Assembly: GCF_002105155.1 (NCBI RefSeq)
Contig: NW_019028979.1
Span: 1,364,001 to 1,428,000, forward strand
Direction of reading: 5' to 3'
DNA length: 64,000 bases
Source of the DNA: Lobosporangium transversale
Taxonomy: Eukaryota; Mortierellomycota; Mortierellomycetes; Mortierellales; Mortierellaceae
The notes beneath the pieces were generated by a model that worked only from the letters and a program-made list of their open reading frames with translations, did no database searches and was not told the origin of the DNA. The translations under genes were made by a program, and so were the position numbers. Positions 40,378 to 62,756 of this stretch are shown here, piece after piece. How positions within the stretch are numbered: the stretch's first letter is position 1; each line of letters begins with the position of its first letter.

Positions 40378-41489
40378 TTATGCAGAAGCACGACTAGTGA
40401 GAAGACTATGGGCCTCCGCAAGCTTGGCCTCCAACTGGGCAATGCGGGCACTCTGGTCAGCCTCCTTGGAGAGATGACCATTTTTCTCAGTTTCAAGAAT
40501 AGCAACCTTCATAGTGAGACGATTGTTAGTTGCCTCTAGCTCTGCAACCTTGGCTTCAAGCGTCTCCAATCGAACCAGCTTCTTAAGGCGTGAGCGACGG
40601 GCAGCGTCCGTGTTTTTAGCACGCTTGGCAATGATCTCCTCATTCTCCTCTGGAGGAGATAATGCGCGCTTCTTAGAAGCAGCTGAGGCAGGCACAAACT
40701 TGACAGCACTTACAGGGACAGGAACAGAGGTGATACTCTGCTCAACAGGCTCGGACTTTGGGACTACTGCGGGGGTAGTGTTCAATGGGGCAGCGCTGGA
40801 CGAAGTGTTAAGGACAGTTGCAGCATTGGCCTGAGCAATTACGGCGAGCTCCAAATCACGGCTCCAAGGGATGTTGAGCGCTGCTGCAGCCTGCTGGAGT
40901 GCAGCACTGGTCAACAGCGACGATGGAGCGGTCACTGAGGGGACCTTGACCTGAGCGGGCGCTGTAGATAGAACAGGGGCGACAATAGAAGGAGCAGGCG
41001 TCGAAACGGGGGTCACCAAATCATTGTTGACACCAAGGGCCATGTCAAAGAGAGAAGGGCCCATGACAGTGCCAAATGAATCAAATCCCAAGTCAGGAGA
41101 ATCATCCAGAGCAGAGAAGGGACTCGAAGTCAAAGAGACATCATCACCAGACAACACGCCCAATTGGAAATCATTGGCCAGCCACTCATCAAATCCACAA
41201 CCATTGTTTGTGACAGTAGCGGTAGAAGCAGGAGTGGCAAAAACGTCGTTGGTATCGTTGTTGACTGCAGGAAGTGCAACCTTGCCAACTATGAAAAAGA
41301 GGAAAAAAAAAAAAAAAGAAAAAAAAAAAAAGTGTCAAAATAGGAAGAATTTGAAGTAAGACAATTTTACGAATTATGACATTATACAAGTTGCTTACAT
41401 TGAGCAAGGGCAGACTCCAAAGCGTCTGCAGACTTGGTGAGCTTGGGATCGGTCATATCAAACATTGTGAAGTCGAAAGAGATGGCCAT
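40378..41489 (-). CDS. bZIP transcription factor of the GCN4/CPC1 type
   Basis: Two exons, 41489-41399 and 41288-40378, give 333 residues. The C-terminal basic region reads AKRAKNTDAARRSRLKKL, the invariant N-x-x-A-A-x-x-S/C-R spacing with the NTDAARRSR form typical of Gcn4/Cpc1. A leucine zipper follows (LETLEAKVAELEATNNRL, then heptads to LAEAHSLL). The N-terminal half is Ala/Pro/Ser-rich with an acidic/hydrophobic segment (GCGFDEWLANDFQLG), a plausible activation domain. Gcn4-type factors bind TGACTCA and switch on amino acid biosynthesis during starvation. The two upstream ORFs in the leader (separate entries) fit this type of gene strongly. Downstream are the F-box relic and a short spacer; upstream lies the palindrome. 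Confidence 0.88.
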
Positions 41490-41593
41490 TTTGGAGGATG
41501 TGATGGTAGGTGTTTAGTCGTATAAAAGAATGAATGGATAGATCTGAAAACGTAAAGACGTTACTCTTGCTCAAAGGTAGAGACGATAAGCTT

Positions 41594-41707
41594 TTAAGAG
41601 TGTAATAAAGAAAGTAAATAGGTTGAGGTAGCTACTACTACGATTGAGTTATTGATGTTGTTGATATTGTTATAGTTTAAGATGGGGAGGATAATTGAGG
41701 AAACCAT
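41594..41707 (-). promoter_or_regulatory. Upstream ORF 2 of the bZIP leader (37 codons)
   Basis: ATG at 41707 opens a 37-codon frame ending TAA at 41594, 104 bp before the main ATG. It is the longer, main-start-proximal uORF. In cpc-1 type genes the second uORF is of similar size and blocks translation of the main ORF when nutrients are plentiful. The role is inferred from position. Confidence 0.6.
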
Positions 41708-41889
41708 GGTGGGCTAACTTGTTTTAAACCGTAAAGGTTATAAAAGAGATGATTCTAAAAGGGTTAAAAGAGGGGAGCTACAAGGGTCTTGGAGGGGTAT
41801 GCGCAAAGGCTATACTTGAAAAGGTTCTGGTTCTTAAAATTGGTTGTTCTGGTGCGATATGGGGGTGTACAAAGAAGTACGAAGCGTAT

Positions 41890-41907
41890 TTAAGCGGAGA
41901 AGGCCAT
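41890..41907 (-). promoter_or_regulatory. Upstream ORF 1 of the bZIP leader (5 codons)
   Basis: ATG at 41907 opens a five-codon frame (M-A-F-S-A) ending TAA at 41890. It is the first of two uORFs, both upstream of the main start. No other ATG occurs on this strand between the two uORFs or between uORF2 and the main start. Function is inferred from the arrangement known for GCN4 and cpc-1. Confidence 0.55.
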
Positions 41908-42587
41908 CTTGGGCAAGATTATGAACGGTATGTGTGAAATGTAAAGCAAAAGAAGGGGTTGGATAGTACGTCCAATAAAGAAATATAATAAAAAGAAAAA
42001 AAGCTTAAGTGGTTTGTTTGGAGAATTGGAATAGTATAAATGGGAAGGGGATAAGGTAAGGAAGAAGAAAAGAAAAGAGAAAAGAGAAAAAGAAAAAGAG
42101 AGGGAAGAGAAAAACAAAAATAATAAAAAAGAAAACATGGGACATGTTTCCTGTTCCTTAAGGGCTTTGTCTACGATTATTTTTTTTTAAAGTTTTTTGC
42201 TCGGGTCTATCTTTCCCGCATCTCTCAGGAACATGAATATAATTGCGCAGATATTGTTATTCGTACACAGGTGTTACGCCAACCACAACAAAGCAATGTA
42301 CGTGGGGGTCATTGAAATGCTTTCCAAAAGCAGCGTGCAAGTTTATCATTGTTCTTTTGACAGGCTTAATTTCGTTCTTCTCACGGAAAAAAAGGTCTCG
42401 GCCATTTTGGGTGAGAAAAATGTTAGCCCTTGATCTTGTCATGTGCAAAAATAAAGTAGCAATAAATTAATAATGCAACGTGGAATGCTGCTTTTCAAGG
42501 GTCACTCAAAGGCAATATTATAGATTTTATACATGTATCATGTGGCCAGTCCCTGCATTTCCAGGTTCATATTCATGAACAGTGTAG
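41908..42587. other. Region between bZIP leader and palindrome
   Basis: Purine-rich stretch (about 42060-42135) and A/T-rich sequence; probably promoter of the bZIP gene. No gene seen. The last ~40 bp, immediately left of the palindrome, have no match to the sequence right of 50505. Confidence 0.5.
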
Positions 42588-42979
42588 TGCACATGACCTT
42601 TACAGAAATTACAAATGAATAAATTTATTTGGTATCACGTGCACTGGCCATCGATTATATTGCACTACCACTTACGTATCATGCATTCAGCGTCCCAAAA
42701 AATGCACTGTATACCTAGGCTATTTTTATGAAGTTTTCTAGGTACTCAGGCACCTTTTTTTTCACCTTTAATGCTGATTGGCGCAAATGAGATCACGCCA
42801 TGCAAGAAAAGGTTGATTTGTAATGTCAGGAATGAATGAGGATGAAGCTGACAAAAGGAAAGGTGAGAACAATAAATTGAAGTCCATTTTGCTTCTCATT
42901 CTTTCATTCCTCTTTAACTAATCTATCTCACAAAACCACGTCATTATATCTATCTACCCGCTTTCATATTACTTAAATT

Positions 42980-43642
42980 ATGTCTTCCTCTAACAACACT
43001 GCTTCCTCTTCCACCAGCCAAGTTGCTGGCAAAAAACGCGCTCGTGAGGAATTGGAAAACGACAAGAGCGCAAGTCGCCAGACCTCACCTTCCCTAGAAG
43101 GTCCACCTGCTGCCCTAGCGTTCCACTATGTGCCATGGGAACGTCCCACCAAAAATATACACGAAATCCAGAAGCTCTTTCTTGAGGGTCCATTCTGTAC
43201 TTTCAGGGAGCGGGAAGACAGTGAGCTTTATCAGGATGGCGATGAAGGGAGTCCTCGCAAGATCCTCTTTCTAGAGGGAGTGCTAAAACGCGATTTGTCC
43301 AGCAAACCCGTGACGCGTGGCAAATTTGAGATTTTCGGGCTTCATGAACCATCGCTGATCAAGCAGCTGAAGCGTCGTGACCTCAGGCTGATCAAAAACA
43401 CGGAATTGCAACGGTTAGAAGCGTTAGCTAGGGCCTCGCAACGTGCACCGGCTGCTGTCGTTTCAGTTGCAACAGAGACTGACCGTCCAGAGTCGACGCT
43501 AGAGATGTCAGAACGACAGCTCCGAACGGTTCTCACTGAACTGGAATCAGTTAATGTGGACTCGCCTCGTAACAAGCTTTTGCAAGAAAAAGCAGCACTG
43601 TTGTTAGATGTGTATAGAACCTTTAAACCAGTTGCGGAATAA
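42980..43642 (+). CDS. Companion protein of the palindrome, unknown function (left copy)
   Basis: Single exon, 220 residues, from ATG at 42980. The N-terminus is Ser/Thr-rich (SSSTSQ), followed by a basic KKRAREEL that could serve for nuclear import. The middle part (FHYVPWERPTKNIHEI, CTFREREDSELY, GLHEPSLIKQLKRRDLRL) looks folded, with alternating charged and hydrophobic residues. The C-terminal 60 residues are predicted helical. I recognise no family. Its 3' end is 88 bp from the stop of the recombinase gene on the other strand, i.e. convergent. It is repeated exactly at 49451-50113. As a second gene carried by a Crypton-like element it may be a cargo or accessory protein; that is inference. 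Confidence 0.6.
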   Translation: MSSSNNTASSSTSQVAGKKRAREELENDKSASRQTSPSLEGPPAALAFHYVPWERPTKNIHEIQKLFLEGPFCTFREREDSELYQDGDEGSPRKILFLEGVLKRDLSSKPVTRGKFEIFGLHEPSLIKQLKRRDLRLIKNTELQRLEALARASQRAPAAVVSVATETDRPESTLEMSERQLRTVLTELESVNVDSPRNKLLQEKAALLLDVYRTFKPVAE

Positions 43643-43730
43643 AGTGTTGTTTTCAAAAATATATATTATCATGAGTATAAAAAATTCGTACGGCGGTGCA
43701 CTTTGGAGAGTACATCAAAACCATAGCTTT

Positions 43731-46002
43731 TTATTTGCCCTTCTTCTTTTGGATAGACTTAAAGTACGCGTTTGAGGATCCAGCTTGCCTGATTGCAGTA
43801 TCCATTGTCGTTTTTGCCTTTATAACTCTGTCGTTCAGTGTTGGTCCTTCAGTCTTCAGGACCTCAGCCAGAGTAGCAAAGATAATTCTTCGCTTGAGCA
43901 TATACTGGTTCCTAAGATTAGGATTCCAGCCTTTGCGCCAGTCCTTTTGGAACCTATTCAAACTCCAAATCGATGGCTTTGCCCCCTGGGCCGTAAACCA
44001 TTCATCCCAAAGAGGAAAAAGAGGGGTGACCCTTGACAACATAGAGAAATTTGGGGCTGCAGCTCTGACCTGGTCAATTGGGAGCTGCAAGTAAGTCTCT
44101 GCAATCTTATCCGCTAAACATTCCAACTTCATTGTTTCCATGGCTTCATTTATCCCTCCATCTTCCTCTTGTTCCTGCACCTCGGGGTCTACTTGGTCTA
44201 GTTGCTCATTTTGGCCTGGTTGCTCGTCTTGGCCTGGTCGCTCATCCTGCTCTGGTTGCTGCTCCAAAGCATCCATCCCCCTTTGTTCAAATCCCCGCGG
44301 CTGCTCCTGGAGATGCTGCCTTGGAGGTATATGATGTATAAGGTCATTCAACTGTTGTTCTTGCTCTTTCGCTTGACGCTGCTCTTGTTGCGTCAGAATG
44401 CGATGCTCGTTCTCCATATCACTAGCTAAATGCCCAAAAGACCTGGCGGTTGTCTTCGTAAGGTTCGACATTACAGTTTGAAGCCCTTGTACGATGGTTA
44501 TCATCTCACGATGCATATGACTGCATGTTCTAGACCAGCCAGCATTACTATTCTCCGCTGTAGCTTGGAGTGCGCCCATAAAATCATCACGTACGTAATG
44601 ATCCAAAGATGACACGCTCGATTTGATGGCTTGAAGCTCTTGATGGATGACTGGAGCATTGAAACGGAGACTGTCGTTTGTTGGTGATTGTGTCTTCTGC
44701 ATGGCATCGTGAAGTCGCAAAGAAAACTCTTGGAACAGTTGCGACGAAAACACAGGGTTACTAGTGAAAACGTGGTGCTGGCTGTAGATACACAATGGAT
44801 CGCCATTGCACGCCATCAGAGCAACTGCATCTTGTAAAATAACCTTGCGCAAGTGGGCTAGGATAAGCATGATTCGCATGGCTGGAATGTACTCAGCTGG
44901 ATAAGGTACTGACTCATTGTCAGGACGATTCAGATCTTCGGGACGATCCATCATAACGTTCTCCATCCATCTGGCCCAATCGACATTGTCTGGAAACAGC
45001 TCCTCAATGAATGGAAAGATTTGCTTCTGTAATTCAACAGGCGGTATAACGGTGTTCCGCGGAAGCCAGAAATCCTCATTCTCGTGGAGAAATCCGGCCA
45101 TTTTAAATGGTACAGTCTGCGCTACCGGACTAAGGTAATGCGTTACCAAGCGGCGATGGTTCCAATTACCATGTTGGGCAATATCTTCGATGCTAGCCCC
45201 ATTGGCTTGCGCATGTTGCGCCCCAGCCTTACGGCCACTATGAGTAACCTTGGATGATGTGTAATGCGCTAGCTTCATCACCTCGCTTAGAGATCTGAGT
45301 ATGGCTATGCTATTGGTTAGGAAACAGAGTACAAAAACTTCATGTAATGGCGTATTTGCATTTCTGATAATTTCACTTGCCTGTAGAGAGTCGCAGCATC
45401 CATCGCTTTGTATTTGTCAGAGGCATGTACAAGGTACTGGGATTTCCAGTCATGCATGCGGAAATTTGGAGTAGATTCTTTCGTCTGTTGTGTAAGGTAA
45501 AGGGGTATTTTAATCATGGATGAATATTAATAGACAGCTTATATGCTGAGTTAATCTTCAACAGCAACCCATAGAAGCAGCCAATACGTACCATCCACTG
45601 CTCGAATAGATAAAAAGCGAGGCATCCAACAGGGCAAATCTCTACGTCCTTGTTACGAATAAATACAGAATGGAGCGTATGATCATTGTTCATTTTTCCT
45701 TGAGGGATTGCTATTACAATCCCAAGTGCGAACTGGTGTCCATTTCCAGCAGTCGCAAAGTGGTGGGGAAATAAGTGGCTCACTAAGGCATCTCGTATAC
45801 TTTGTCCCCGAGTGATCATAAAATGATTAAATGCAAAACACAGACGATTACGCGCGCCAACTAGCTTCTGTGTCCTGGAGACAGCACTCAGATGCTTATA
45901 GCTCCTGCTCCACGAGATCTTCATAAATTTCTTGAACATAGATAGAGGATATCCCGCACCAACTGTCAGTTGCAGAACGTCCTGGGACGACGTTCTTTTG
46001 TT
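43731..46002 (-). CDS. Crypton-type tyrosine recombinase with GCR1_C-like domain (left copy, 5' end missing)
   Basis: Mirror of the gene at 47091-49362. Exons 46002-45592, 45484-45381 and 45312-43731 join in frame. Catalytic residues of tyrosine recombinases are visible: Arg in FMITRGQSIRD, His-x-x-Arg in VTHSGRKAG, then GNWNHRRLVTHYLSP with the nucleophile Tyr. A Gln/Glu-rich linker follows, then a C-terminal GCR1_C-like block (WNPNLRNQYMLKRRII). The N-terminal core-binding domain, expected to be a few hundred residues, is not encoded in the 540 bp between exon one and the palindrome centre. So the gene is 5'-incomplete or its first exons lie in sequence I cannot recognise. Confidence 0.75.
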
Positions 46003-47090
46003 CTGGTTCAAAAGTAACGTTCATAATCTGTTTCTAGCTCTGCTGATATAAAAAAAAAAAATAAATAAATAAAGAAAGAAGGCGTGAGACTGAGGCCATA
46101 GAGGGTCGGCGTACGGCTCTAAGCAAATGGGATACATAATGGGTCCTTTGCTCAGAAGCACTCCTCCTCTCTTAGAGGGTGTTGGTATTGCGTTTTATTG
46201 AATCCATCTTTTTTTTTTTCTAAAGGGGTTACGGGGACAAGAGACAGGAACGCCGAGAAAGTAAATGAGTGAGTGGGAAGGAGAGCTTACTCGGTTTAGA
46301 AGGGTTTGGAAAGGTGTTGGGTGTAGCAATGAAGAAGGAAGAAAAGGAATGCATGAATGCATGAGACATTTTTTTTTTTTTTTTTTTTTTTCCCAGTATA
46401 GCCTGGGAGGTATTTGCAGAGGTTACAAGCAGGATTACAATTGGTGCGAAAACACAGTCACATATATACTTATTGAATACAAATTTTGTAATTTAAATTG
46501 TTAAGATTTCATTTTGTAATCCGATTACAGCAAACTACCGTTTATACTGAAACGGTAGTTTGCTGTAATCGGATTACAAAATGAAATCTTAACAATTTAA
46601 ATTACAAAATTTGTATTCAATAAGTATATATGTGACTGTGTTTTCGCACCAATTGTAATCCTGCTTGTAACCTCTGCAAATACCTCCCAGGCTATACTGG
46701 GAAAAAAAAAAAAAAAAAAAAAAATGTCTCATGCATTCATGCATTCCTTTTCTTCCTTCTTCATTGCTACACCCAACACCTTTCCAAACCCTTCTAAACC
46801 GAGTAAGCTCTCCTTCCCACTCACTCATTTACTTTCTCGGCGTTCCTGTCTCTTGTCCCCGTAACCCCTTTAGAAAAAAAAAAAGATGGATTCAATAAAA
46901 CGCAATACCAACACCCTCTAAGAGAGGAGGAGTGCTTCTGAGCAAAGGACCCATTATGTATCCCATTTGCTTAGAGCCGTACGCCGACCCTCTATGGCCT
47001 CAGTCTCACGCCTTCTTTCTTTATTTATTTATTTTTTTTTTTTATATCAGCAGAGCTAGAAACAGATTATGAACGTTACTTTTGAACCAG

Positions 47091-49362
47091 AACAAAAGAA
47101 CGTCGTCCCAGGACGTTCTGCAACTGACAGTTGGTGCGGGATATCCTCTATCTATGTTCAAGAAATTTATGAAGATCTCGTGGAGCAGGAGCTATAAGCA
47201 TCTGAGTGCTGTCTCCAGGACACAGAAGCTAGTTGGCGCGCGTAATCGTCTGTGTTTTGCATTTAATCATTTTATGATCACTCGGGGACAAAGTATACGA
47301 GATGCCTTAGTGAGCCACTTATTTCCCCACCACTTTGCGACTGCTGGAAATGGACACCAGTTCGCACTTGGGATTGTAATAGCAATCCCTCAAGGAAAAA
47401 TGAACAATGATCATACGCTCCATTCTGTATTTATTCGTAACAAGGACGTAGAGATTTGCCCTGTTGGATGCCTCGCTTTTTATCTATTCGAGCAGTGGAT
47501 GGTACGTATTGGCTGCTTCTATGGGTTGCTGTTGAAGATTAACTCAGCATATAAGCTGTCTATTAATATTCATCCATGATTAAAATACCCCTTTACCTTA
47601 CACAACAGACGAAAGAATCTACTCCAAATTTCCGCATGCATGACTGGAAATCCCAGTACCTTGTACATGCCTCTGACAAATACAAAGCGATGGATGCTGC
47701 GACTCTCTACAGGCAAGTGAAATTATCAGAAATGCAAATACGCCATTACATGAAGTTTTTGTACTCTGTTTCCTAACCAATAGCATAGCCATACTCAGAT
47801 CTCTAAGCGAGGTGATGAAGCTAGCGCATTACACATCATCCAAGGTTACTCATAGTGGCCGTAAGGCTGGGGCGCAACATGCGCAAGCCAATGGGGCTAG
47901 CATCGAAGATATTGCCCAACATGGTAATTGGAACCATCGCCGCTTGGTAACGCATTACCTTAGTCCGGTAGCGCAGACTGTACCATTTAAAATGGCCGGA
48001 TTTCTCCACGAGAATGAGGATTTCTGGCTTCCGCGGAACACCGTTATACCGCCTGTTGAATTACAGAAGCAAATCTTTCCATTCATTGAGGAGCTGTTTC
48101 CAGACAATGTCGATTGGGCCAGATGGATGGAGAACGTTATGATGGATCGTCCCGAAGATCTGAATCGTCCTGACAATGAGTCAGTACCTTATCCAGCTGA
48201 GTACATTCCAGCCATGCGAATCATGCTTATCCTAGCCCACTTGCGCAAGGTTATTTTACAAGATGCAGTTGCTCTGATGGCGTGCAATGGCGATCCATTG
48301 TGTATCTACAGCCAGCACCACGTTTTCACTAGTAACCCTGTGTTTTCGTCGCAACTGTTCCAAGAGTTTTCTTTGCGACTTCACGATGCCATGCAGAAGA
48401 CACAATCACCAACAAACGACAGTCTCCGTTTCAATGCTCCAGTCATCCATCAAGAGCTTCAAGCCATCAAATCGAGCGTGTCATCTTTGGATCATTACGT
48501 ACGTGATGATTTTATGGGCGCACTCCAAGCTACAGCGGAGAATAGTAATGCTGGCTGGTCTAGAACATGCAGTCATATGCATCGTGAGATGATAACCATC
48601 GTACAAGGGCTTCAAACTGTAATGTCGAACCTTACGAAGACAACCGCCAGGTCTTTTGGGCATTTAGCTAGTGATATGGAGAACGAGCATCGCATTCTGA
48701 CGCAACAAGAGCAGCGTCAAGCGAAAGAGCAAGAACAACAGTTGAATGACCTTATACATCATATACCTCCAAGGCAGCATCTCCAGGAGCAGCCGCGGGG
48801 ATTTGAACAAAGGGGGATGGATGCTTTGGAGCAGCAACCAGAGCAGGATGAGCGACCAGGCCAAGACGAGCAACCAGGCCAAAATGAGCAACTAGACCAA
48901 GTAGACCCCGAGGTGCAGGAACAAGAGGAAGATGGAGGGATAAATGAAGCCATGGAAACAATGAAGTTGGAATGTTTAGCGGATAAGATTGCAGAGACTT
49001 ACTTGCAGCTCCCAATTGACCAGGTCAGAGCTGCAGCCCCAAATTTCTCTATGTTGTCAAGGGTCACCCCTCTTTTTCCTCTTTGGGATGAATGGTTTAC
49101 GGCCCAGGGGGCAAAGCCATCGATTTGGAGTTTGAATAGGTTCCAAAAGGACTGGCGCAAAGGCTGGAATCCTAATCTTAGGAACCAGTATATGCTCAAG
49201 CGAAGAATTATCTTTGCTACTCTGGCTGAGGTCCTGAAGACTGAAGGACCAACACTGAACGACAGAGTTATAAAGGCAAAAACGACAATGGATACTGCAA
49301 TCAGGCAAGCTGGATCCTCAAACGCGTACTTTAAGTCTATCCAAAAGAAGAAGGGCAAATAA
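47091..49362 (+). CDS. Crypton-type tyrosine recombinase with GCR1_C-like domain (right copy, 5' end missing)
   Basis: Exons 47091-47501 (start uncertain), 47609-47712 and 47781-49362. Intron 1 is GT-AG; intron 2 uses a GC donor (TACAG^GCAAGT) with acceptor AATAG, and joining restores the frame (LYR^SIAILRSL). Catalytic residues: Arg of TRGQSIRD, His and Arg of THSGRKAG, Tyr of THYLSP. A Gln/Glu-rich region (about residues 290-380) separates the catalytic part from a GCR1_C-like DNA-binding block near the C-terminus. Members of this class (Cryptons) move by site-specific recombination through a circular DNA form. Upstream of 47091 an in-frame stop (47070) prevents extension. The protein is unlike the second recombinase at 51044-54507 except for the catalytic pattern. 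Confidence 0.75.
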
Positions 49363-49450
49363 AAAGCTATGGTTTTGATGTACTCTCCAAAGTGCACCGC
49401 CGTACGAATTTTTTATACTCATGATAATATATATTTTTGAAAACAACACT

Positions 49451-50113
49451 TTATTCCGCAACTGGTTTAAAGGTTCTATACACATCTAACAACAGTGCTG
49501 CTTTTTCTTGCAAAAGCTTGTTACGAGGCGAGTCCACATTAACTGATTCCAGTTCAGTGAGAACCGTTCGGAGCTGTCGTTCTGACATCTCTAGCGTCGA
49601 CTCTGGACGGTCAGTCTCTGTTGCAACTGAAACGACAGCAGCCGGTGCACGTTGCGAGGCCCTAGCTAACGCTTCTAACCGTTGCAATTCCGTGTTTTTG
49701 ATCAGCCTGAGGTCACGACGCTTCAGCTGCTTGATCAGCGATGGTTCATGAAGCCCGAAAATCTCAAATTTGCCACGCGTCACGGGTTTGCTGGACAAAT
49801 CGCGTTTTAGCACTCCCTCTAGAAAGAGGATCTTGCGAGGACTCCCTTCATCGCCATCCTGATAAAGCTCACTGTCTTCCCGCTCCCTGAAAGTACAGAA
49901 TGGACCCTCAAGAAAGAGCTTCTGGATTTCGTGTATATTTTTGGTGGGACGTTCCCATGGCACATAGTGGAACGCTAGGGCAGCAGGTGGACCTTCTAGG
50001 GAAGGTGAGGTCTGGCGACTTGCGCTCTTGTCGTTTTCCAATTCCTCACGAGCGCGTTTTTTGCCAGCAACTTGGCTGGTGGAAGAGGAAGCAGTGTTGT
50101 TAGAGGAAGACAT
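49451..50113 (-). CDS. Companion protein of the palindrome, unknown function (right copy)
   Basis: Exact mirror copy of the 220-residue gene at 42980-43642; ATG at 50113, stop at 49451. Promoter sequence up to the arm end (50114-50505) is also identical to the other copy, including a CACGTG at about 50454. It is convergent with the recombinase gene of the same arm. No family recognised. Confidence 0.6.
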   Translation of the reverse strand: MSSSNNTASSSTSQVAGKKRAREELENDKSASRQTSPSLEGPPAALAFHYVPWERPTKNIHEIQKLFLEGPFCTFREREDSELYQDGDEGSPRKILFLEGVLKRDLSSKPVTRGKFEIFGLHEPSLIKQLKRRDLRLIKNTELQRLEALARASQRAPAAVVSVATETDRPESTLEMSERQLRTVLTELESVNVDSPRNKLLQEKAALLLDVYRTFKPVAE

Positions 50114-50505
50114 AATTTAAGTAATATGAAAGCGGGTAGATAGATATAATGACGTGGTTTTGTGAGATAGATTAGTTAAAGAGGAATGAAAGAATGAGAA
50201 GCAAAATGGACTTCAATTTATTGTTCTCACCTTTCCTTTTGTCAGCTTCATCCTCATTCATTCCTGACATTACAAATCAACCTTTTCTTGCATGGCGTGA
50301 TCTCATTTGCGCCAATCAGCATTAAAGGTGAAAAAAAAGGTGCCTGAGTACCTAGAAAACTTCATAAAAATAGCCTAGGTATACAGTGCATTTTTTGGGA
50401 CGCTGAATGCATGATACGTAAGTGGTAGTGCAATATAATCGATGGCCAGTGCACGTGATACCAAATAAATTTATTCATTTGTAATTTCTGTAAAGGTCAT
50501 GTGCA

Positions 50506-51043
50506 GTATATAGAGCGAATCTGAATCAATATTAAGACAGGGAGTGCTCTGTGTCTTGAAATGTGACTGTCACTGCTCTGTGTCTTGTTTGTGTAACCAT
50601 TTTGGCGTATATTTAAGTCAAAGTGCGTATAATGTAGTCAATATAAACCACAGAATGCGTAAAATGTAGTGAAAACGGCGTATATTCCTTCCTTTTCAAT
50701 CATTAGTATTTCAGATACCTTGCTATTCTGGTATTATTTAACTTTTTACAGACCACATCTGGTCAAGTTAATCTAAACTAACATTCCCTTTATCCATACT
50801 CCATACTATTCGCCATTTATTTCCCTCAACGGAAATGAGGAGAAAGTGCGTTTAGACGCTACCAAACGCCAAACGGATCGCAAACGCGCGACTCACAAAC
50901 ATACCAATTTCTTTTTATTTTATTTTTTTGGCAAAGCAATTAATGCATTTAGTATTTTATTACTATATCTATTATTATATATGTTACTATCGTACATGCT
51001 TCTATATATGCTATTGTTACCTACCTGGGAAGTGTATTGTCAT
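50506..51043. other. Spacer between palindrome and second Crypton gene
   Basis: Contains a 14-bp direct repeat (TGCTCTGTGTCTTG at about 50537 and 50573) and related GCGTAT/AATGTAGT units between 50600 and 50700. These may be the end region of the second element, but I cannot place its boundary. Confidence 0.35.
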
Positions 51044-54000
51044 TTATTGGTCATCTTCAGGATCCTCTTGCTCCCTAGCTTTCATGGATATCAACAGTGA
51101 GTTAATAGTCTTTCCCTCATTTGCCTGTGACCACTCAGCAACAATGTCTTCAGGATTGCGACCTTCCCTTCGTGCTGCTTCGTTGATCAGCCTAATTAAC
51201 TCATATCGTCGATTGTAGGCCCTTTGGTCTGATGTATTCACTGGCCAACTCGGGTTCAATCTTTTAAATGCTGCAAGGGGCCCATGAAACTCATCCCAAG
51301 CATCTGCCACTGTGAGCTTTCCGCGGTCTGCTTTCCATTTGAAAGTGGCGCTTGATGAGCTGGGGCCTGGGGACGAGTGATGCGATGGCTCTGGCGCTCG
51401 TTGGAAGCAATGTAGAGGAGCTTGAACCAGCGATGAGTGCTGTTGAGGTACCTGTGGGGGACGCGTCGCAAACGGCTGCTGTTGAGGGACTCTGCGCAGA
51501 GCAGGATAGCTTGGCATAGTATGGGGATATGGCCCAAGAAGACCGGCTGAATTCAAGGGATGCGCTGGAGCTTGGCGAGCTGACGGATCCTGCAATAAAT
51601 GTATCACTATCTCCATTTGCTGCTTTAGCGTCGCGAGCTCTGAGCTCATGGCAGACAACTGCGCCCTTTGTTGTGCTTCTTGCTGTGCCATTTGTGCTCC
51701 TTGCCGAGCAATAGCTGCTTCAAGAGATGCATTCTGGTGACTAAGGCTGTTTAGCGCGTTGGAGACCACATGTTTGTCAACTGGGACTAATGGATTGACA
51801 ACATTGGCGCTCTGCTGATGCACTTCGATCGCACGAAGGAGCTCTCTCTGAAAGTCAAGGAACAGCTGACTCTCAAAGATTTCTGGAAGTGATTCTAAAA
51901 GCTTATTGCTCAGAGTCCTTCCTTTGCTGTCAGGCTTCAGGTACAGCACGGCGTCTTGAAGGATAACTCTCCTCATTTGTACCAGCAATAGTAGGAAAGC
52001 TCTTCGATCAATCATTGCGCTGTTCATGAGCTTATTGGCCGTTGCGGCGGAGCTTCCCGTAGTTTCTTCATCTTGATCCCTAGCCGCTGTCGAATGGCGC
52101 ATACGCTCCTGCCAGCCTCCCCAGTGCAGGTCGTCCTCCGTGATGAGATCCGGGTTTACATCTGTCATAGCATCATTACAATCCTTGACCCATTCCTCAT
52201 TCTCTCTAGCGCTGCTGTTAAAGTTCCCTTCGATCCAAGGGAAAATTTTCCTCTGCAGCTCCAAGTCAGGGATAACGAGATTACGCTCAAGGATATAAGG
52301 TTCCTGTTCCTTGTTGAAATGAGCCATATAAAACGCGCCAGTGGTGGGGTTCTTTGGAGCATAGAAACTCTCCATCTGTCCCATTACCCAACGCCCAAGG
52401 TGACGGATATGCTCCAAGCCTAAGCCCAGACGGTACGCATCTGATGTTCCTGCGTGTCGACCGGCGTGAGTGACCTTGGTCGAATAAACGCCACAGGTTC
52501 GCATCACAGAAGCTGTGGCATCGATTTGAGTCTTTGGTGCAACAGCATTCTTGCGAAGGCCTGCGTTGCGCTTCTCGATCGTACTAGCCGCGACCAAAAG
52601 CTTGATGTTGTACCAATCGTCAGGATCAGCGAAGTTTGGGACATCCTCCTTATCCAGCTATTATAGGAATGGTACGCGACCCAACATTTAACAACGAGCT
52701 AGGAAAGTACATAACCTATATTGCAGTAAGAAGAGACAAGAATGGCACAAATCTCTTACCATAAATCGTTCTAACATGTAGAAGCCAAACGCTCCTACAG
52801 TACACCTGTAAAAAACTTTATGACGAAAGGCGGTTGCATAAAGCTTAACACCCTTTTTATTTGTTTTGCCACGAGATATGCAAAACGTAAGTCCGAGAGC
52901 TGGCTGGGACCCACTTGCCGGATGGGAAGACATGATACTGAACACATCAGATAGGTTAAGATTGCGAATGTCTTCATCTCGCAGCAGCATATGGTGTCGT
53001 GCCAAGATGCAAAGGCGCTCACGCATATATTGAAATCTACCTTCCGCATGGTACACTCGCTTCCCTTTTAGCCGCAGCATTGGCTTCATACCCCACGTAT
53101 GGAGGGCCATCCGAATGAACTGCTTCTCATTATAGGGGTCGCGAATAGAACAGGTATCAGTGCGCGTCGATCCCTGGAATGAGGTGTCGTACACTAGTTT
53201 CCCCTCGTATTCCTCGATAGCCTCCTTCAGCGGGATATCCTTGCGCGGATGAGGTGCAGGGTTTGGCCAATCCACCTTTGATGACGCTTGCTCCTTGTAG
53301 AGATAAATTAATGCCTTCCTGGCACAATCCACTGTTTCTATCGAGATAGGCGCATAGATGAATCTTCGGCCAGTCTCATCAGTTTGCGGATGCGAAAGAA
53401 CTATATTTGGATTAAAATGAAGTGTCAGAATGTCAATTAAGAGTGAGCCACAGCTTTGAACAAGGTTATTTTGGTTACATGATTACACTAGATTTACTTT
53501 TTGCTCTTTCCGCAATGGAGGAGACCATGAGGGCTTGTGGTTCAGCAGACATGAGGGCCTCTTCTTCAGCTGGTTGCGAGTGATTTTGTTCCTCGTCTTC
53601 GCTTCCTGCATCGTCTTTGTCACCTTGGGAGGCTTCCTCAAACCCCTCAAATGCCGGAGTCTCATAAGGCTGTGAATTACGTTGGCTATAATTTTGCTCC
53701 AGCTCATGGACAACATCCTGAAAAATACTTTCCTCTGTCTCTGCTTTCCAAGCCTTTGGTTTTCTCTTATTTTCGCGAGTCAGCTTGCCCTCTAACACTG
53801 ATCTGGCCGCTTGTGATGAAGCCTTTCCAACGACGCCACTGAATCCCGCGTTTGAATCAATATATTTCTTTACTGTGCGCTTGAAAACAACCTCCTCGAA
53901 AAACTTTAACATTTTTCTTGCGTCAACGCTGCAGTCCCCTTTTTCTCTTGTGCTGCAGAACACCTATCATTTATATTGTATTTGCATATTTTGTATTACG

Positions 54001-54507
54001 AAGCATGAAAAAAAAAATTTGACTGTCCTAAAAAATAAAATAAACAAATAAACAAAATAATAAACTTACCTGCCAAGCTTTCAAGTATGTCTTGTACTGC
54101 AGCAATGTCTTTGAGGGATTCTTGTTGGCGAGGAGAGATTCGAGAACATGGTTAGCACAGGTTTTTCTCTGCTCTGCTGTTTCTTCAGACGAAAAAGGCG
54201 ACTGAAGGTGGCTGGAAGAGTTATCAGTTGTTGCACCGATAATCGTGTCTTGGGAGTAGATCCGCTTGCGAGGGGTGTGTTCCTCGGAGACGTTGTGGAC
54301 GCCTACAGAACAGGCCCTTCTTTTGCCCTCGCGGATCTCTCTCCTTTTTTCTTTTTCATCTCTGGCTTCCTTAGCCTTTCGTGCATAGCCACTTCTTCCT
54401 TCTTTCCCTTGCTTCACGCTAAATTCGAAGAAGGTCCCGCTTGGACCTGAGTTTATTGATGAAGAGGCAGCGTTGCCAGAAGAAGAAGAAGCGATAGTGC
54501 GGGGCAT
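51044..54507 (-). CDS. Second Crypton-type tyrosine recombinase with GCR1_C-like domain, apparently intact
   Basis: Four exons (54507-54070, 53963-53498, 53400-52760, 52657-51044) join in frame to 1052 residues. The first splice rebuilds a core-binding helix (TYLKAWQVFCSTREKG) and the second gives LSHPQTDETGRRF. The catalytic set is complete: Arg in HHMLLRDEDIRNLNLSDV, His and Arg in VTHAGRHAGTSDA, GRWVMGQMESFYAP with the nucleophile Tyr. A Gln/Pro-rich linker (about residues 770-900) and a GCR1_C-like domain (LNPSWPVNTSDQRAYNRR) follow. The N-terminus is Ser-rich with a Lys/Arg/Glu-rich stretch (KRREIREGKRR). No stop or shift interrupts it, so it could be active. The element's ends could not be defined; the gene points towards the palindrome. 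Confidence 0.82.
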
Positions 54508-55328
54508 CTTGATAGGTTACTTTATATTTTTTGTTGAGGGAATTGGGTAGATATTTGTGAGTACGATCAAGTGTTGCAAGTAGTGGTTATCGTAATAAAT
54601 AGCGATGATGTATAATGTATAAAAGAAAAGAATAAAAAAGAAAAATGTAAGCGAACATGGTTTTATACTTTTAGCTCATATTGTCAAGTCCAGTTCAAGA
54701 ATATACTCTCCTCATATTTCAATTGTTCAATCGCTATCTTAGTGAGCTTGATCAATTGTTAGCTTCCCTCAAGCGCGTTATTTTCCTTTGAGTACGGAAT
54801 GAGTACAGATGAGGAATGAGTGGAATGAGTGGAATGGAATGCGGGAATGAAGAATTGTATGAAGCAAGGTGTTGATCAGATCAGACCGCTTTGTGAGCGC
54901 GCTACGCGCGTGTAACTAAAGATACTTTTAGTTTCTACTTTTCAGTTAGATGTAGTGAAAAGACATGTGCCTGAATTCTAACCTCTGTGTCTCTGTGTCT
55001 GTACGTGAAACCTATGAAACATTTTGCCTATTAATGGGCATACACTGGAATTTGACTTAATAAACTATTACAGTATAAATATATATATATATCTATACTT
55101 TAATTTTTTATTTTCGCTTGTGGATCTCTGCATACAATTGTTCTTCTTTTAATCTTATTTCAATAGCCGAAGCAATAGTTTGGGATATCGTCGCCATTTG
55201 GTCACGAACATAGTGTAAAAATATATTGATTGAACTGATGGCCAGAAGCGAGGACAATATAGATATATATATATCGAGGAAGTGGGGCTTCTTGATATTT
55301 TATTATCACTATAGAGACGATATGATAC
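54508..55328. other. Upstream region of the second Crypton gene and spacer
   Basis: A TATA-like GTATAAAAG lies at about 54619 (on the plus strand) and GGAATGAGT repeats near 54800-54840. Nothing else recognisable; it probably holds the other end of the second Crypton element. Confidence 0.4.
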
Positions 55329-57386
55329 TTATGAAGGGACTGCTTGCTCCTCCTCTTTGTGTTTCCTTGAAGGCTTTTGTGAATTTACAGGGCTTATTTC
55401 ATGTTTAAGAGGAGGTGGAAGGAACGCAATCTGTGGACGATATTGAGAATCCTTGACTACTCGACTCTTTTGTACTGACTTGGGTAGATAATGGAAGACG
55501 ACATGTCGAAACAGCCTTTCGAACATCGTCTATTGATTACAAAAATACAAGCGTTAATCGATTGTTGTAAAACTATGTCAACCGGATTTTCATATACCCT
55601 TCTCCTCTTCTCAACTTTAAATGGCTTACATGACCATATTGCAGTTTAGCTGCAATTTGACTTGCTTCGTATTGTGTCTTTACATGATGATACCGTTGCG
55701 CATGATAACTTTTGAATGCTTTTTGAATTCTTCCAAAAGATAAAGGTTTAAGGTCATAAAGGCAGTTTGCTAAAACTACAGCGTCTTGCATTGCATTTAT
55801 AGCACCTTGGCCAGCACTTGGAAGCATCTATCGTGACCAAGAAAAAAAAAATTAGTAACAAAATAACTTGCTTTCATTAAAGATAATTGCCATATGTCCA
55901 GCACTAACCTTGTGTGCAGCTTAGAGAGACGCGATTTAGACAAAAAAAAAAAAAAAAACTTTAAGTAAAAGAAATAACTTTTTGCAAGACAATCCATTAG
56001 TTCATGAGACACATACCATCGCCAATCAACACTGTCCGACCATGGTGCCAAGTTTCATATAGGATATCTTCAAGGAAGACTCTGCTGATTAGGTCCTTTG
56101 GTGTAGCATCGATCAAGTCGCCAAGGATACCATATGGAGTCTTGAAGTGATATACCCTCTCGATCATTTTTTTATTGTGTGCAGAGGTCCACTCGGAATT
56201 CCGAAACTGCTCATCCGCTGATGCATCGGCAGTTAGTTGCAAGACAGCACCCCAGCATATTCTGTTCCCAGGCACTTGAATGACACTCCACTACAAGGAT
56301 GGTTATTTATAATAATGATGTGAATATTAAAACTATCAAGAAAGAAAAAAGTTTCTGAATTACATATTTTCTCAGGAACTGGTGTAACTCACTGCATATG
56401 GCGTTGACTTGTCGCCAACCATTAAGTTACTGTCACACGTCGGTCCTCCCAAACCAGGGTATTTAGATGGATCGAGCGCATTAGTCGTGCCTACTAGACA
56501 GATATAACCCTTTGATATCTCACGCTCATCTGAAGACGGCAATTTCTTTTGTTCAGAAAGCTCTTTGAACAAATTCTGGCGAACCGCGCTATAGGCTCCA
56601 TCTGCTCCTACTAAGATGTCACCATGAACGCATGTTCCATCTTTGAGACGCACCATGACACCTTCTTGGTTCTGTAAAAAACTCATGACTTTTTTGCCCA
56701 TTTGGATCTTGTGAGGAGGAATGCGATCATACAGCAACTTGTAGAGTTCGGGGCGAGGGAAAAGTGCGCTCTCATAACCAACGCTGCATCAAACAAATAA
56801 TAAAATAACAATACAGTAAATGATTGTGTATCATGTATCTTGTATTGCTTTCTAAAAGAGGAGGCGACAATCTATGCAAAAGTAAATGTATATACTCACA
56901 TTTTGTTATCTTCTTCACAACTATACTCTCCAATCTTCTTCATGTCGTGTGAGAAAATCCTGGTCATGGAACATGTAAACGAGATTTTGCGAAGATCCTC
57001 ATATAATCCCAGCTGCTCGAAGGCAGGAAGGATATTCGCTGTCAAACTCATGACAGAGCCTACAGTCCAATACAAAAATAGAGATTAAAATTGTGAGTTT
57101 CTATATATTTACAAAGTGACAAAAGGTGAGAGAGGAAGAAATGTGTATACATACCAAGAGGTACAACCTCTTTTGCACGCTCGAAAATCTGGTATGGGAT
57201 GTTTGCCTTTTCTAGGATGTTTGCCAAGAATAAGCCTGCAAGACCCCCACCAGAAATGATTACATGTGGGGGGCTATTGGAGATCTGTGGAGGTAATTCA
57301 CTCGATTTGAAGGATTTAAAGATGGGCTCGGGCGAGTATTCATCTTTGACCTCGTGTGTATCTTGAGCATTTAATGTTGAAGCCAT
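55329..57386 (-). CDS. FAD-dependent monooxygenase (UbiH/PHBH type)
   Basis: Seven exons: 57386-57155, 57059-56900, 56771-56393, 56290-56017, an 11-nt micro-exon 55919-55909, 55827-55630 and 55529-55329, giving 484 residues in one frame. Motifs: HVIISGGGLAGLFLANILEKA (dinucleotide-binding GxGxxG), DILVGADGAYSAVRQ (the DG motif), and GDAAHKMLPSAGQGA (the third FAD motif), the last assembled across the micro-exon. Family members hydroxylate aromatic or lipophilic substrates with NAD(P)H; the substrate here is unknown. The third exon start is unusual: a T5 run near 56764 spoils an expected GYESALFPRPELY, and an acceptor 13 nt later restores the frame. A real one-base insertion or sequencing error is possible. 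Confidence 0.82.
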
Positions 57387-61560: not shown

Positions 61561-61733
61561 TTTATCTATCATCTGTCCTGTCGCCATGAGCAGCTGTCCA
61601 CATCTCTCTTCAATCCATTGCCATCTTCAATGCTTTTCTAAACGCCTCCCTGCCTGCATCTCGGGCACCGCCTGCACCCATCTCTCGTAGATGCCCTTAC
61701 TTCACATCTCCTATACTTCTTCCCTCCTTCTTC

Positions 61734-62139
61734 TTTTTTTTTTTTTTTGATAACAAGGACCCACGAGGTCATGTAGGATTTATTTAGATGTTAGCTCTAT
61801 AAATGGGTTGCCCCATTACTGGGGTCGCAAATAAAGCGGTATCCAATAATCGGCCGAAGCCGCATCGTCATACTGCCACAGTACTACATCCTGTTCATAA
61901 ACCACGTCAGCATTGAGTAGACTTCCTTGGTCCCAGAGGACCTGTGGCACGGCTCTACTCCCTACTTGACCTGTTGTGCGCGAAGGTCATCCTTTAGCCG
62001 CTGTCCTCAATCATCAAAAATTTACAGCTTTCCAGGCGCTCCATAATCGCCAATTCCACCTGCTGCCGGTAGCTTGCCGCCACTCGCCGGTCTGCCTCAG
62101 TCCTGATCGCCTTCACATCTGCTGTTCGTCGTTGTCCCT

Positions 62140-62141: not shown

Positions 62142-62170
<29 letters not shown>

Positions 62171-62756
62171 GATAACAAGGACCCACGAGGTCATGTAGGA
62201 TTTATTTTGATGTTAGCTCTATAAATGGGTTGCCCCATTACTGGGGTCGCAAATAAAGCGGTATCCAATAATCGGCCGAAGCCGCATCGTTATACTGCCA
62301 CAGTACTACATCCTGTTCATAAACCACGTCAGCATTGAGTAGACTTCCTTGGTCCCAGAGGACCTGTGGCACGGCTCTACTCCCTACTTGGCCTGTTGTG
62401 CGCGAAGGTCATCCTTTAGCCGCTGTCCTCAATCATCAAAAATTTACAGCTTTCCAGGCGCTCCATAATCGCCAATTCCACCTGCTGCCGGTAGCTTGCC
62501 ACCACTCGCCGGTCTGCCCCAGTCCTGATCGCCTTCACATCTGCTGTTCGTCGTTGTCCCTGGTGAGAGCCAAAGAATTCACCTCTGCTACGTCTGTGCC
62601 TCCCAACACAGTTGCGTCCCCTGGCGCGTTTGCTCACAGAGGTGATACCATTTTCTCTTTCCCAGTTGACGGTGACTTTGCAGCGTCTGTTTGTAACTTA
62701 AGGATCTGCCTTAAGTCATCTTCCGCTGGTACATCGTTGAACTTAACACTATAAAA
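62142..62756 (-). mobile_element. Poly(A)-tailed retroelement end, copy B
   Basis: On the minus strand, from about 62756 down to GTTATC at 62171-62176, followed by a 29-nt poly-A (62170-62142). The last 393 bp duplicate copy A; the first ~190 bp are unique here and contain the frame FYSVKFNDVPAEDDL. Copy A and copy B are head-to-tail on this strand with no spacer. It ends ~110 bp before the tRNA-Trp gene. Confidence 0.6.

Follow-up and report, generated by a model that had tools for sequence, protein, structure and literature searches.

A perfect 8-kb palindrome of two inverted CryptonF-like elements in Lobosporangium transversale, and its possible origin by recombinase-type joining

What is the 8-kb palindrome at 42588..50505 of the window, the 64,000-nucleotide stretch of Lobosporangium transversale DNA analysed here, and how did it form? 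Mirror comparison about position 46546.5 showed that its two arms are perfect reverse complements over 3,956 bp with 0 mismatches, and the only mirror mismatches within the palindrome were the three pairs of the 6-bp centre; the arm length, centre and axis given in an earlier note were thus reproduced. A repeat search returned the same arms lengthened by three partly matching bases (42585-46543 and 46550-50508). The next three best of the 190 scored mirror axes matched at ~28%, which excludes chance as the source of the palindrome. The homopolymer reported to be equally long in both arms proved to be a T-run of 23 nt in each, and the mirrored features and identical proteins described earlier were recovered in the list of table-11 ORFs (compiled without intron modelling), in which the ORFs of one arm are present again in the other.

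42588..46543, plus strand: left arm, a copy of Crypton A with an internal deletion (the whole element starts at 42584 or 42586, depending on core length)
46544..46549, no strand: 6-bp centre, ATACTG, the reverse complement of CAGTAT
46550..50505, minus strand: right arm, a second A copy, inverted, whose outer end lacks the outermost left-end bases plus the core

Each arm is a fungal CryptonF-like DNA transposon with a tyrosine recombinase, here named A. Pfam identified NDC10_II and GCR1_C in the A recombinase. NDC10_II was above the cut-off in both recombinase ORFs, and GCR1_C (PF12550), the C-terminal DNA-binding domain of CryptonF, scored 24.0 bits against a cut-off of 23 at residues 413-481. 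Alignment of 10 proteins (8 of the 17 protein relatives plus A and its neighbour B) showed that H-x-x-R and Y are conserved in at least 90% of them; the first R was not located, and the arms are without the N-terminus. We take the conserved H-x-x-R and Y to be residues of the catalytic tetrad (R-H-R-Y). Seven of the 17 relatives were named, from Dissophora, Mortierella and kin. The 220-aa ORF near the left end had no Pfam match at E<=0.1.

42980..43642, plus strand: 220-aa ORF near the A left end (mirror 49451-50113, minus strand)
43731..45281, minus strand: C-terminal part of the A recombinase in the left arm, with the H-x-x-R and Y region and GCR1_C (Pfam, alignment)
45514..46011, minus strand: upstream ORF of the A recombinase in the left arm, with the first part of NDC10_II (Pfam)
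46001..46002, no strand: point of the internal deletion (mirror 47091/47092), where C69 carries 1,025 bp encoding the recombinase N-terminus
46166, plus strand: private C common to both arms (mirror 46927), A at C40, C95, C13, C69 and C36
47082..47579, plus strand: mirror of the upstream recombinase ORF in the right arm (ORF list)
47812..49362, plus strand: mirror of the C-terminal recombinase ORF in the right arm (ORF list)

Comparison of the A copies showed that the 1,025 bp present in C69, which correspond in alignment to roughly residues 56-342 of protein P0002 from Dissophora, are missing from the arms and from C40, C95 and C13, none of which carries the complete recombinase gene of an autonomous Crypton. 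The copies without the recombinase N-terminus were probably mobilised in trans, and internally deleted Crypton copies have spread in a fungus. The private base, found in both arms and in none of the five other copies that cover the position, indicates that one arm probably served as the template for the other. Among the origins listed in the earlier note, a very recent inverted duplication of a tyrosine-recombinase element is the one that this base and the CryptonF-like arms support.

We compared the junctions at the ends of A. CAGT flanks A on both sides at C40, C95, C13 and C69, and ordinary copies read CAGTGT-[A]-CAGTA and bear the short (4-6 bp) terminal direct repeats of CryptonF. The left junction CAGT-GTAG-TGCACATG was found at six of the seven A left ends seen (C40, C95, C13, C69, C87 and here; C36, which lacks its first 32 bp, was left out of the count), and the deviant seventh is the outer end of the right arm. 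On the other side, six of the seven A right ends seen read CCGTTT followed by CAGTA (CAGTAT at the right arm, C40 and C95), and the seventh, that of the left arm, ends at exactly the same base and is followed by ATACTG. The centre consists of a right end, ATACTG and an inverted right end. At the outer right junction, an A left end that has lost a few bases meets CAGTAT-B with the CAGTAT intact, and the sequence around 50505 reads GGTCATGTG-CAGTATATAG. Exact pattern search of the assembly found the centre and outer junction sequences once each, only here.

42580..42585, plus strand: CAGTGT, left insertion core of the left A copy, the normal left junction (copy comparison)
50504..50509, plus strand: CAGTAT, core at the abnormal outer junction of the A left end with B, its CA common to both partners
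50510..55070, plus strand: Crypton B, multi-copy, whose minus-strand recombinase ORFs point to the palindrome
51044-52597 and 52688-53332 (span 51044..53332), minus strand: B recombinase ORFs (Pfam)
55071..55076, plus strand: CAGTAT, right core of B, followed by host sequence

The right flank of the palindrome is a second multi-copy Crypton family, B (50504-55070). The flanks do differ, as had been claimed, but the right one, the left end of this family, is not unique. In the B ORFs, NDC10_II scored 27.1 bits (above the cut-off of 26.3) and 24.3 bits (below it), and GCR1_C scored 17.7 bits, below the cut-off of 23. The B core is CAGTAT on the left; on the right it is CAGTAT in four of the five non-tandem right ends seen and CAATAT in the fifth. 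Five direct tandem B junctions read R-CAGTAT-L, and tandem arrays of B occur at C82, C48 and C12. These tandems are, as sequences, compatible with the circular transposition intermediates that PMC3212892 describes as proposed for Cryptons. Two Crypton families are stacked in apparently one CAGT site, and ~12.5 kb of repeats separates the host sequence on the left, which runs to 42579, from that on the right, which resumes at 55071. By assembly search, the host stretches 41400-42591 and 55071-56500 are single-copy except for short matches. Had B inserted within the inverted A copy, at its left end, the odd outer junction would need no rearrangement; this was considered and rejected, the right flank of B at 55071 being CAGTATAAATATATA and not the remainder of an A left end.

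We propose that a single Crypton insertion was duplicated in place and in inverted orientation by recombinase-type joining at its right end, a reading to which we give an even chance. Copy comparison suggests that A first entered a CAGT site and came to be bordered by CAGTGT to the left and CAGTAT to the right. Another A molecule of this locus, for example a circle excised from the sister copy, would then have joined inverted at the resident right end. Strand cuts 6 bp apart, followed by right-to-right joining, would leave exactly one 6-bp overlap between the arms, and the overlap carried by the incoming strand would be ATACTG, matching the centre. The other end of the incoming copy would have been joined to the resident CAGTAT core with loss of ~4 bp of its left end, either through the CACT next to CAGT or by imprecise end joining, and B would have entered this core as well, either earlier or later than the duplication. 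That the second copy came from the same site and was joined inverted within a 6-bp recombinase overlap is, for this single case, a proposition that we find evenly balanced.

Recombinase joining is favoured by the positions of the abnormal junctions, both of which coincide with element ends. The string predicted for an inverted join equalled that observed over 30 bases, of which 24 are arm ends by construction under a post hoc model; the informative part is the 6 centre bases and the boundary position. To judge from the sequences of the left and right cores of B and of its tandem junctions, the core behaves like a recombinase overlap. Tn916 and Tn1549, conjugative transposons that likewise use a tyrosine recombinase, offer a parallel: in the cited sections of PMC5871717, their 5-7 nt crossover region may be heterologous, Tn916-type recombinases exchange strands with almost no homology across it, and the circular intermediate has a heteroduplex joint. 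Those elements are bacterial and conjugative, unlike the Cryptons here with their preferred CAGT core, and the comparison concerns the way of working only.

Several points stand against recombinase joining. Elsewhere, the core at the A and B junctions seen is CAGT (once CAAT), and joining CAGTAT inverted needs mismatches at 6 of 6 overlap bases; we have seen no report that Cryptons can join without a matching overlap. A clean exchange predicts GGTCATGTGCACTCAGTAT..., against the observed outer junction GGTCATGTGCAGTAT..., with 4 bp missing. In normal copies the left core seems to belong to the element and the right core to the target, and the inverted copy has it the other way round. By exact patterns, the assembly also has a single R-R' junction for A and neither R-R' nor L-L' for B. 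Little weight attaches to the orientation of the centre, which any crossover of the two arms would flip. Because the recombinase N-terminus is absent from the arms, an enzyme encoded at another place would be required.

Of the rival origins, the one that survives best, though unlikely, is template switching by fold-back while the DNA was being replicated or a break repaired. Here, a strand 6-9 nt past the A right end (CAGTATAAA, if A bordered the host now right of B) would have snapped back, its AAA pairing with the TTT of CCGTTT over a 6-nt loop; A would have been copied backwards nearly to its left end, and the strand rejoined at CAGTAT through the 2-bp CA microhomology, which is present at the outer junction. 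The host right of B starts CAGTATAAAT, so that the junction before B would be CCGTTT-CAGTAT-AAA, in which 6 nt separate the halves of a 3-bp inverted repeat (recognised by eye; outside the six longest of the scan). Yeast inversion junctions occur at existing interrupted inverted repeats of 2-14 bp in the data cited from PMC10766183, but most of the repeats used, spacer included, spanned 40-80 bp there. Template switching leaves unexplained why copying stopped a few bases from the other element end and resumed exactly at the departure point, which are both coincidences unless set by element-specific nicks, and a simple snap-back from the left-flank side would give a centre of CAGTAT, not ATACTG, unless it flipped later. 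The palindrome resembles the products of yeast ODIRA or hairpin-capped inverted amplification in having inverted copies that meet at short inverted repeats with a short spacer between them. As presented in the cited part of PMC10766183, those processes yield inverted triplications or capped linear molecules with an origin, whereas one element is duplicated here, in only two copies, with both breakpoints at element boundaries.

Next comes the improbable case that the palindrome is an assembly error or reflects chimaeric (fold-back) reads and that the genome has a single A between the left host and B. The 0 mismatches, T-run included, the long repeat block between the host flanks and the breaks in or near other A copies (the left end of one lies 142 bp from the start of contig C87, and contig C40 starts 823 bp ahead of another) would all agree with this. 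A perfect 8-kb palindrome is also expected to be unstable. Repeat collapse alone, however, would not make two junction sequences found only here, and chimaeric reads should not change template precisely where an element ends, nor regain the opposite flank at the core with few bases lost.

Two independent A insertions in opposite orientation at neighbouring sites are very unlikely: CAGT is used by both A and B, and one-site arrays are known from the B tandems, but the arms have in common a base that none of 5 other copies carries, neither the left end nor the left core of the inverted copy is normal when read in its own orientation, and at most 6 bp of host sequence lies between the arms. Conversion, which had been suggested to keep the arms identical, may have acted but need not be invoked, since C40, C95 and C13 depart from the arms at only a handful of positions in 4 kb.

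We compared the locus with CryptonF elements, the tyrosine-recombinase DNA transposons of fungi and oomycetes; most of those in fungi reportedly carry terminal direct repeats of 6 bp (Kojima and Jurka 2011, PMC3212892). A is like them in having a putative Crypton-type recombinase with GCR1_C, and A and B in having short direct repeats (CAGT for A, the 6-bp CAGTAT for B); the elements here differ from those described there in the fusion of two copies right end to right end into a perfect palindrome. The word "palindrome" had no match in the main text of that paper, and no title on Crypton palindromes was among the matches listed from the open-licence literature. Not seen in the earlier note were B as the right neighbour, the centre as the reverse complement of the insertion core, and the lost left-end bases of the right copy.

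If recombinase joining is the true origin, the centre would be a direct imprint of Crypton strand exchange with an overlap of 6 bp, would suggest that a eukaryotic Crypton recombinase joins ends without a matching overlap, and would reveal a route by which tyrosine-recombinase transposons give long perfect palindromes that are fragile and potentially silencing. If the palindrome is a fold-back or assembly product, it has little import beyond caution about repeats in assembly.

We give only the faintest chance to the further idea that the palindrome is a natural hairpin-RNA trap that silences its own A family, a fungal counterpart of maize Mu killer built by transposon recombination. Read-through from the minus-strand ORFs of B, which end at 51044, into the right arm would produce a perfect 3.9-kb hairpin RNA, and this would feed RNA silencing of A elements, including copies with the recombinase N-terminus. 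In the cited text of PMC3440606, Mu killer likewise duplicates part of a DNA transposon in inverted orientation; it is proposed to give a hairpin RNA of about 4 kb, and silencing of the active element is reported.

Head-to-head pairing was also considered as a general habit of these elements and was rejected, as exact-match patterns found one R-R' junction for A in the assembly and, for B, no R-R' or L-L' pair with 0-30 bp between. An inverted Crypton-like pair at C51 was considered as a second palindrome and set aside as a separate case with a 4,980-bp centre and unclean outer ends; its inverted copies, of 3,941 and 3,940 bp, are 99.85% alike, with 3 mismatches and 3 gaps.

Mirror comparison of the window (G000:C1:1364001-1428000, in an assembly of 42.7 Mb and 127 contigs) identified 42588-46543 and 46550-50505 as two arms of 3,956 bp that mirror each other without a mismatch, as reverse complements, and are separated by ATACTG, bearing out as written the palindrome described in the earlier note. 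The unique flanks assumed there stood in part: the arm sequences diverge outside 42588 and 50505, where a repeat search added three partly matching bases, but the right flank is not unique, as a second Crypton family (B) starts at 50504. The array runs host, CAGTGT, A (the CryptonF-like element of the arms), ATACTG, inverted A, CAGTAT, B, CAGTAT and host, with 12.5 kb of repeats between the two host flanks. Searched against the assembly, the host stretches that border the array (1.2 kb on the palindrome side, 1.4 kb beyond B) returned only short matches elsewhere. The palindrome appears to be a real inverted duplication of recent date, bounded by the ends of a CryptonF-like element that carries an internal deletion, and it represents a single locus.

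The ORFs of one arm are identical to the mirror ORFs of the other, and the recombinase ORFs of A are:
43731-45281, minus strand, recombinase ORF with NDC10_II and GCR1_C, both above the Pfam cut-offs
45514-46011, minus strand, recombinase ORF with NDC10_II, above the Pfam cut-off

Homology search listed 17 proteins, including P0001 (100% identical), which is probably the window's own protein. Seven of the 17 bear an organism name (Dissophora ornata, two; Benniella, Mortierella alpina, Gamsiella, Linnemannia and Haplosporangium), all of them Mortierellaceae. H-x-x-R and Y, presumably the catalytic residues, were kept in at least 90% of the sequences in an alignment of 10 proteins (A, B and 8 from the homology list of 17). 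The arms are predicted to be Crypton elements.

Near-identical A copies were found on contigs C40, C95 and C13, and the start of C87 carries the 142-bp end of another. The C69 copy contains 1,025 bp more than the arms, and the more diverged C36 copy (97%) contains 1,223 bp more. This extra DNA corresponds in alignment to the N-terminus of the Dissophora protein (in C69, to about residues 56-342), so the arms and the C40, C95 and C13 copies are internal-deletion derivatives, presumably mobilised in trans. Two 1-bp gaps also separate C69 from the arms, one of them within ORF 45514-46011. The stretch 42815-43658, with a 220-aa ORF lacking a Pfam match (42980-43642, plus strand), has full-length or partial matches of 70-79% identity on C68, C73, C60, C3, C43, C97 and others, where the rest of A is mostly unmatched; this ORF is possibly an accessory gene common to several elements.

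The left end of A reads CAGTGTAGTGCACATG at six of the seven left ends seen (C40, C95, C13, C69, C87 and the left arm; C36, without its first 32 bp, was omitted from the count); only the right arm departs from this, at its outer end. The right end reads CCGTTT followed by CAGTA at six of seven (C13, C36, C40, C69, C95 and the right arm), a count to which one pattern search contributed that itself required CAGT within 12 bases; the exception is that of the left arm, where ATACTG comes next. The left core is constantly CAGTGT, and the right core varies past CAGTA, its sixth base being T (C40, C95, right arm), A (C13, C69) or C (C36). These left- and right-end cores point to CAGT as the insertion site of A.

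Copy comparison at 46166 found C in both arms and A in C40, C95, C13, C69 and C36 (the C87 end lay outside this comparison). One arm probably derives from the other. The T-run is 23 long in both arms and C69, 22 in C40 and C95, and 21 in C13, counts that may include sequencing error.

The palindrome centre (CCGTTT-ATACTG-AAACGG) and the outer right junction (GGTCATGTG-CAGTAT-ATAGAGCG) each occur at one site in the assembly. A modelled join of two right ends with a 6-bp overlap, devised after the fact, matched the centre at 30 of 30 bases, 24 of which are arm ends by construction. A clean exchange predicts GGTCATGTGCACT-CAGTAT at the outer side, and the observed sequence is 4 bp short (6 bp if the core is 4). 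Taking arm identity, the private base at 46166, the element ends, the cores and the neighbouring B as observed, we infer that a second A copy, from a circle or a sister copy, would have been joined in inverted orientation by an enzyme supplied in trans, with a few bases lost on its outer side; B would have inserted before or after this. According to PMC3212892, terminal direct repeats of 6 bp are found in most CryptonF elements of fungi, a typical tyrosine-recombinase site is a 6-8 bp segment between two inverted repeats, and Cryptons have been proposed to move through circular intermediates. Tn1549, according to PMC5871717, performs strand exchange at minimal homology and integrates at TTTT-n6-AAAA. 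The palindrome centre is TTT-n6-AAA; this motif comes from the right-end sequence of A, and the likeness may be a coincidence. Two observations count against recombinase joining: core inheritance in the inverted copy is the reverse of that in normal copies, and exact-pattern searches of the assembly (A R-R', B R-R' and L-L') found no second head-to-head case.

Alternatively, the palindrome could have arisen by snap-back at the pre-B right junction of A (CCGTTT-CAGTAT-AAAT; three pairs and a 6-nt loop), a pairing read by eye that assumes that A then bordered the present right-hand host sequence. In yeast, interrupted repeats as short as 2-14 bp give rise to inverted junctions (PMC10766183), and snap-back also yields the observed centre, but it leaves unexplained why the other breakpoint coincides with the left end of A. 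That the palindrome is an assembly product, for which contig breaks inside or close to copies of A (on C87 and C40) and the long run of repeats between the host flanks speak, is unlikely; both breakpoints are at element ends, which is not expected from random breakage or chimaeric reads. Two separate A insertions would need an unseen donor carrying the same private base.

The neighbouring B element ends within the window:
55070, right end of B, followed by CAGTATAAATATATA and host sequence

A 3.4-kb query of B gave 13 matches of at least 3 kb at 94-100% identity, the window's own counted. Some copies are in direct tandem (G000:C82:1-17300, C48:17600-26800 and C12:20700-28400), with five junctions of right end, CAGTAT and left end, an arrangement that could stem from successive insertions at one core or from the insertion of multimeric circles. 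At the right end of the C48 array (L035:734), CAATAT follows B in place of CAGTAT. This suggests a right core that is the target's own, and tolerance of one overlap mismatch. Genome-wide, GCR1_C gave 49 matches at E<=1, 34 of them above the cut-off, and NDC10_II gave 90 at E<=0.001, counted by exon. Beyond A and B, score groups (near C2/C35/C58/C44 and C95/C54/C76/C50) suggest more Crypton families, some forming direct tandem pairs. An inverted Crypton-like pair with NDC10_II matches (G000:C51:821850-825790 and 830771-834710; L040-L042) consists of copies of ~3.94 kb, 99.85% alike, with a partly repetitive separation of 4,980 bp and outer ends that are not clean. The window also contains a 300-bp direct repeat (61728-62027 and 62150-62449; 98% identical, 422 bp start to start).
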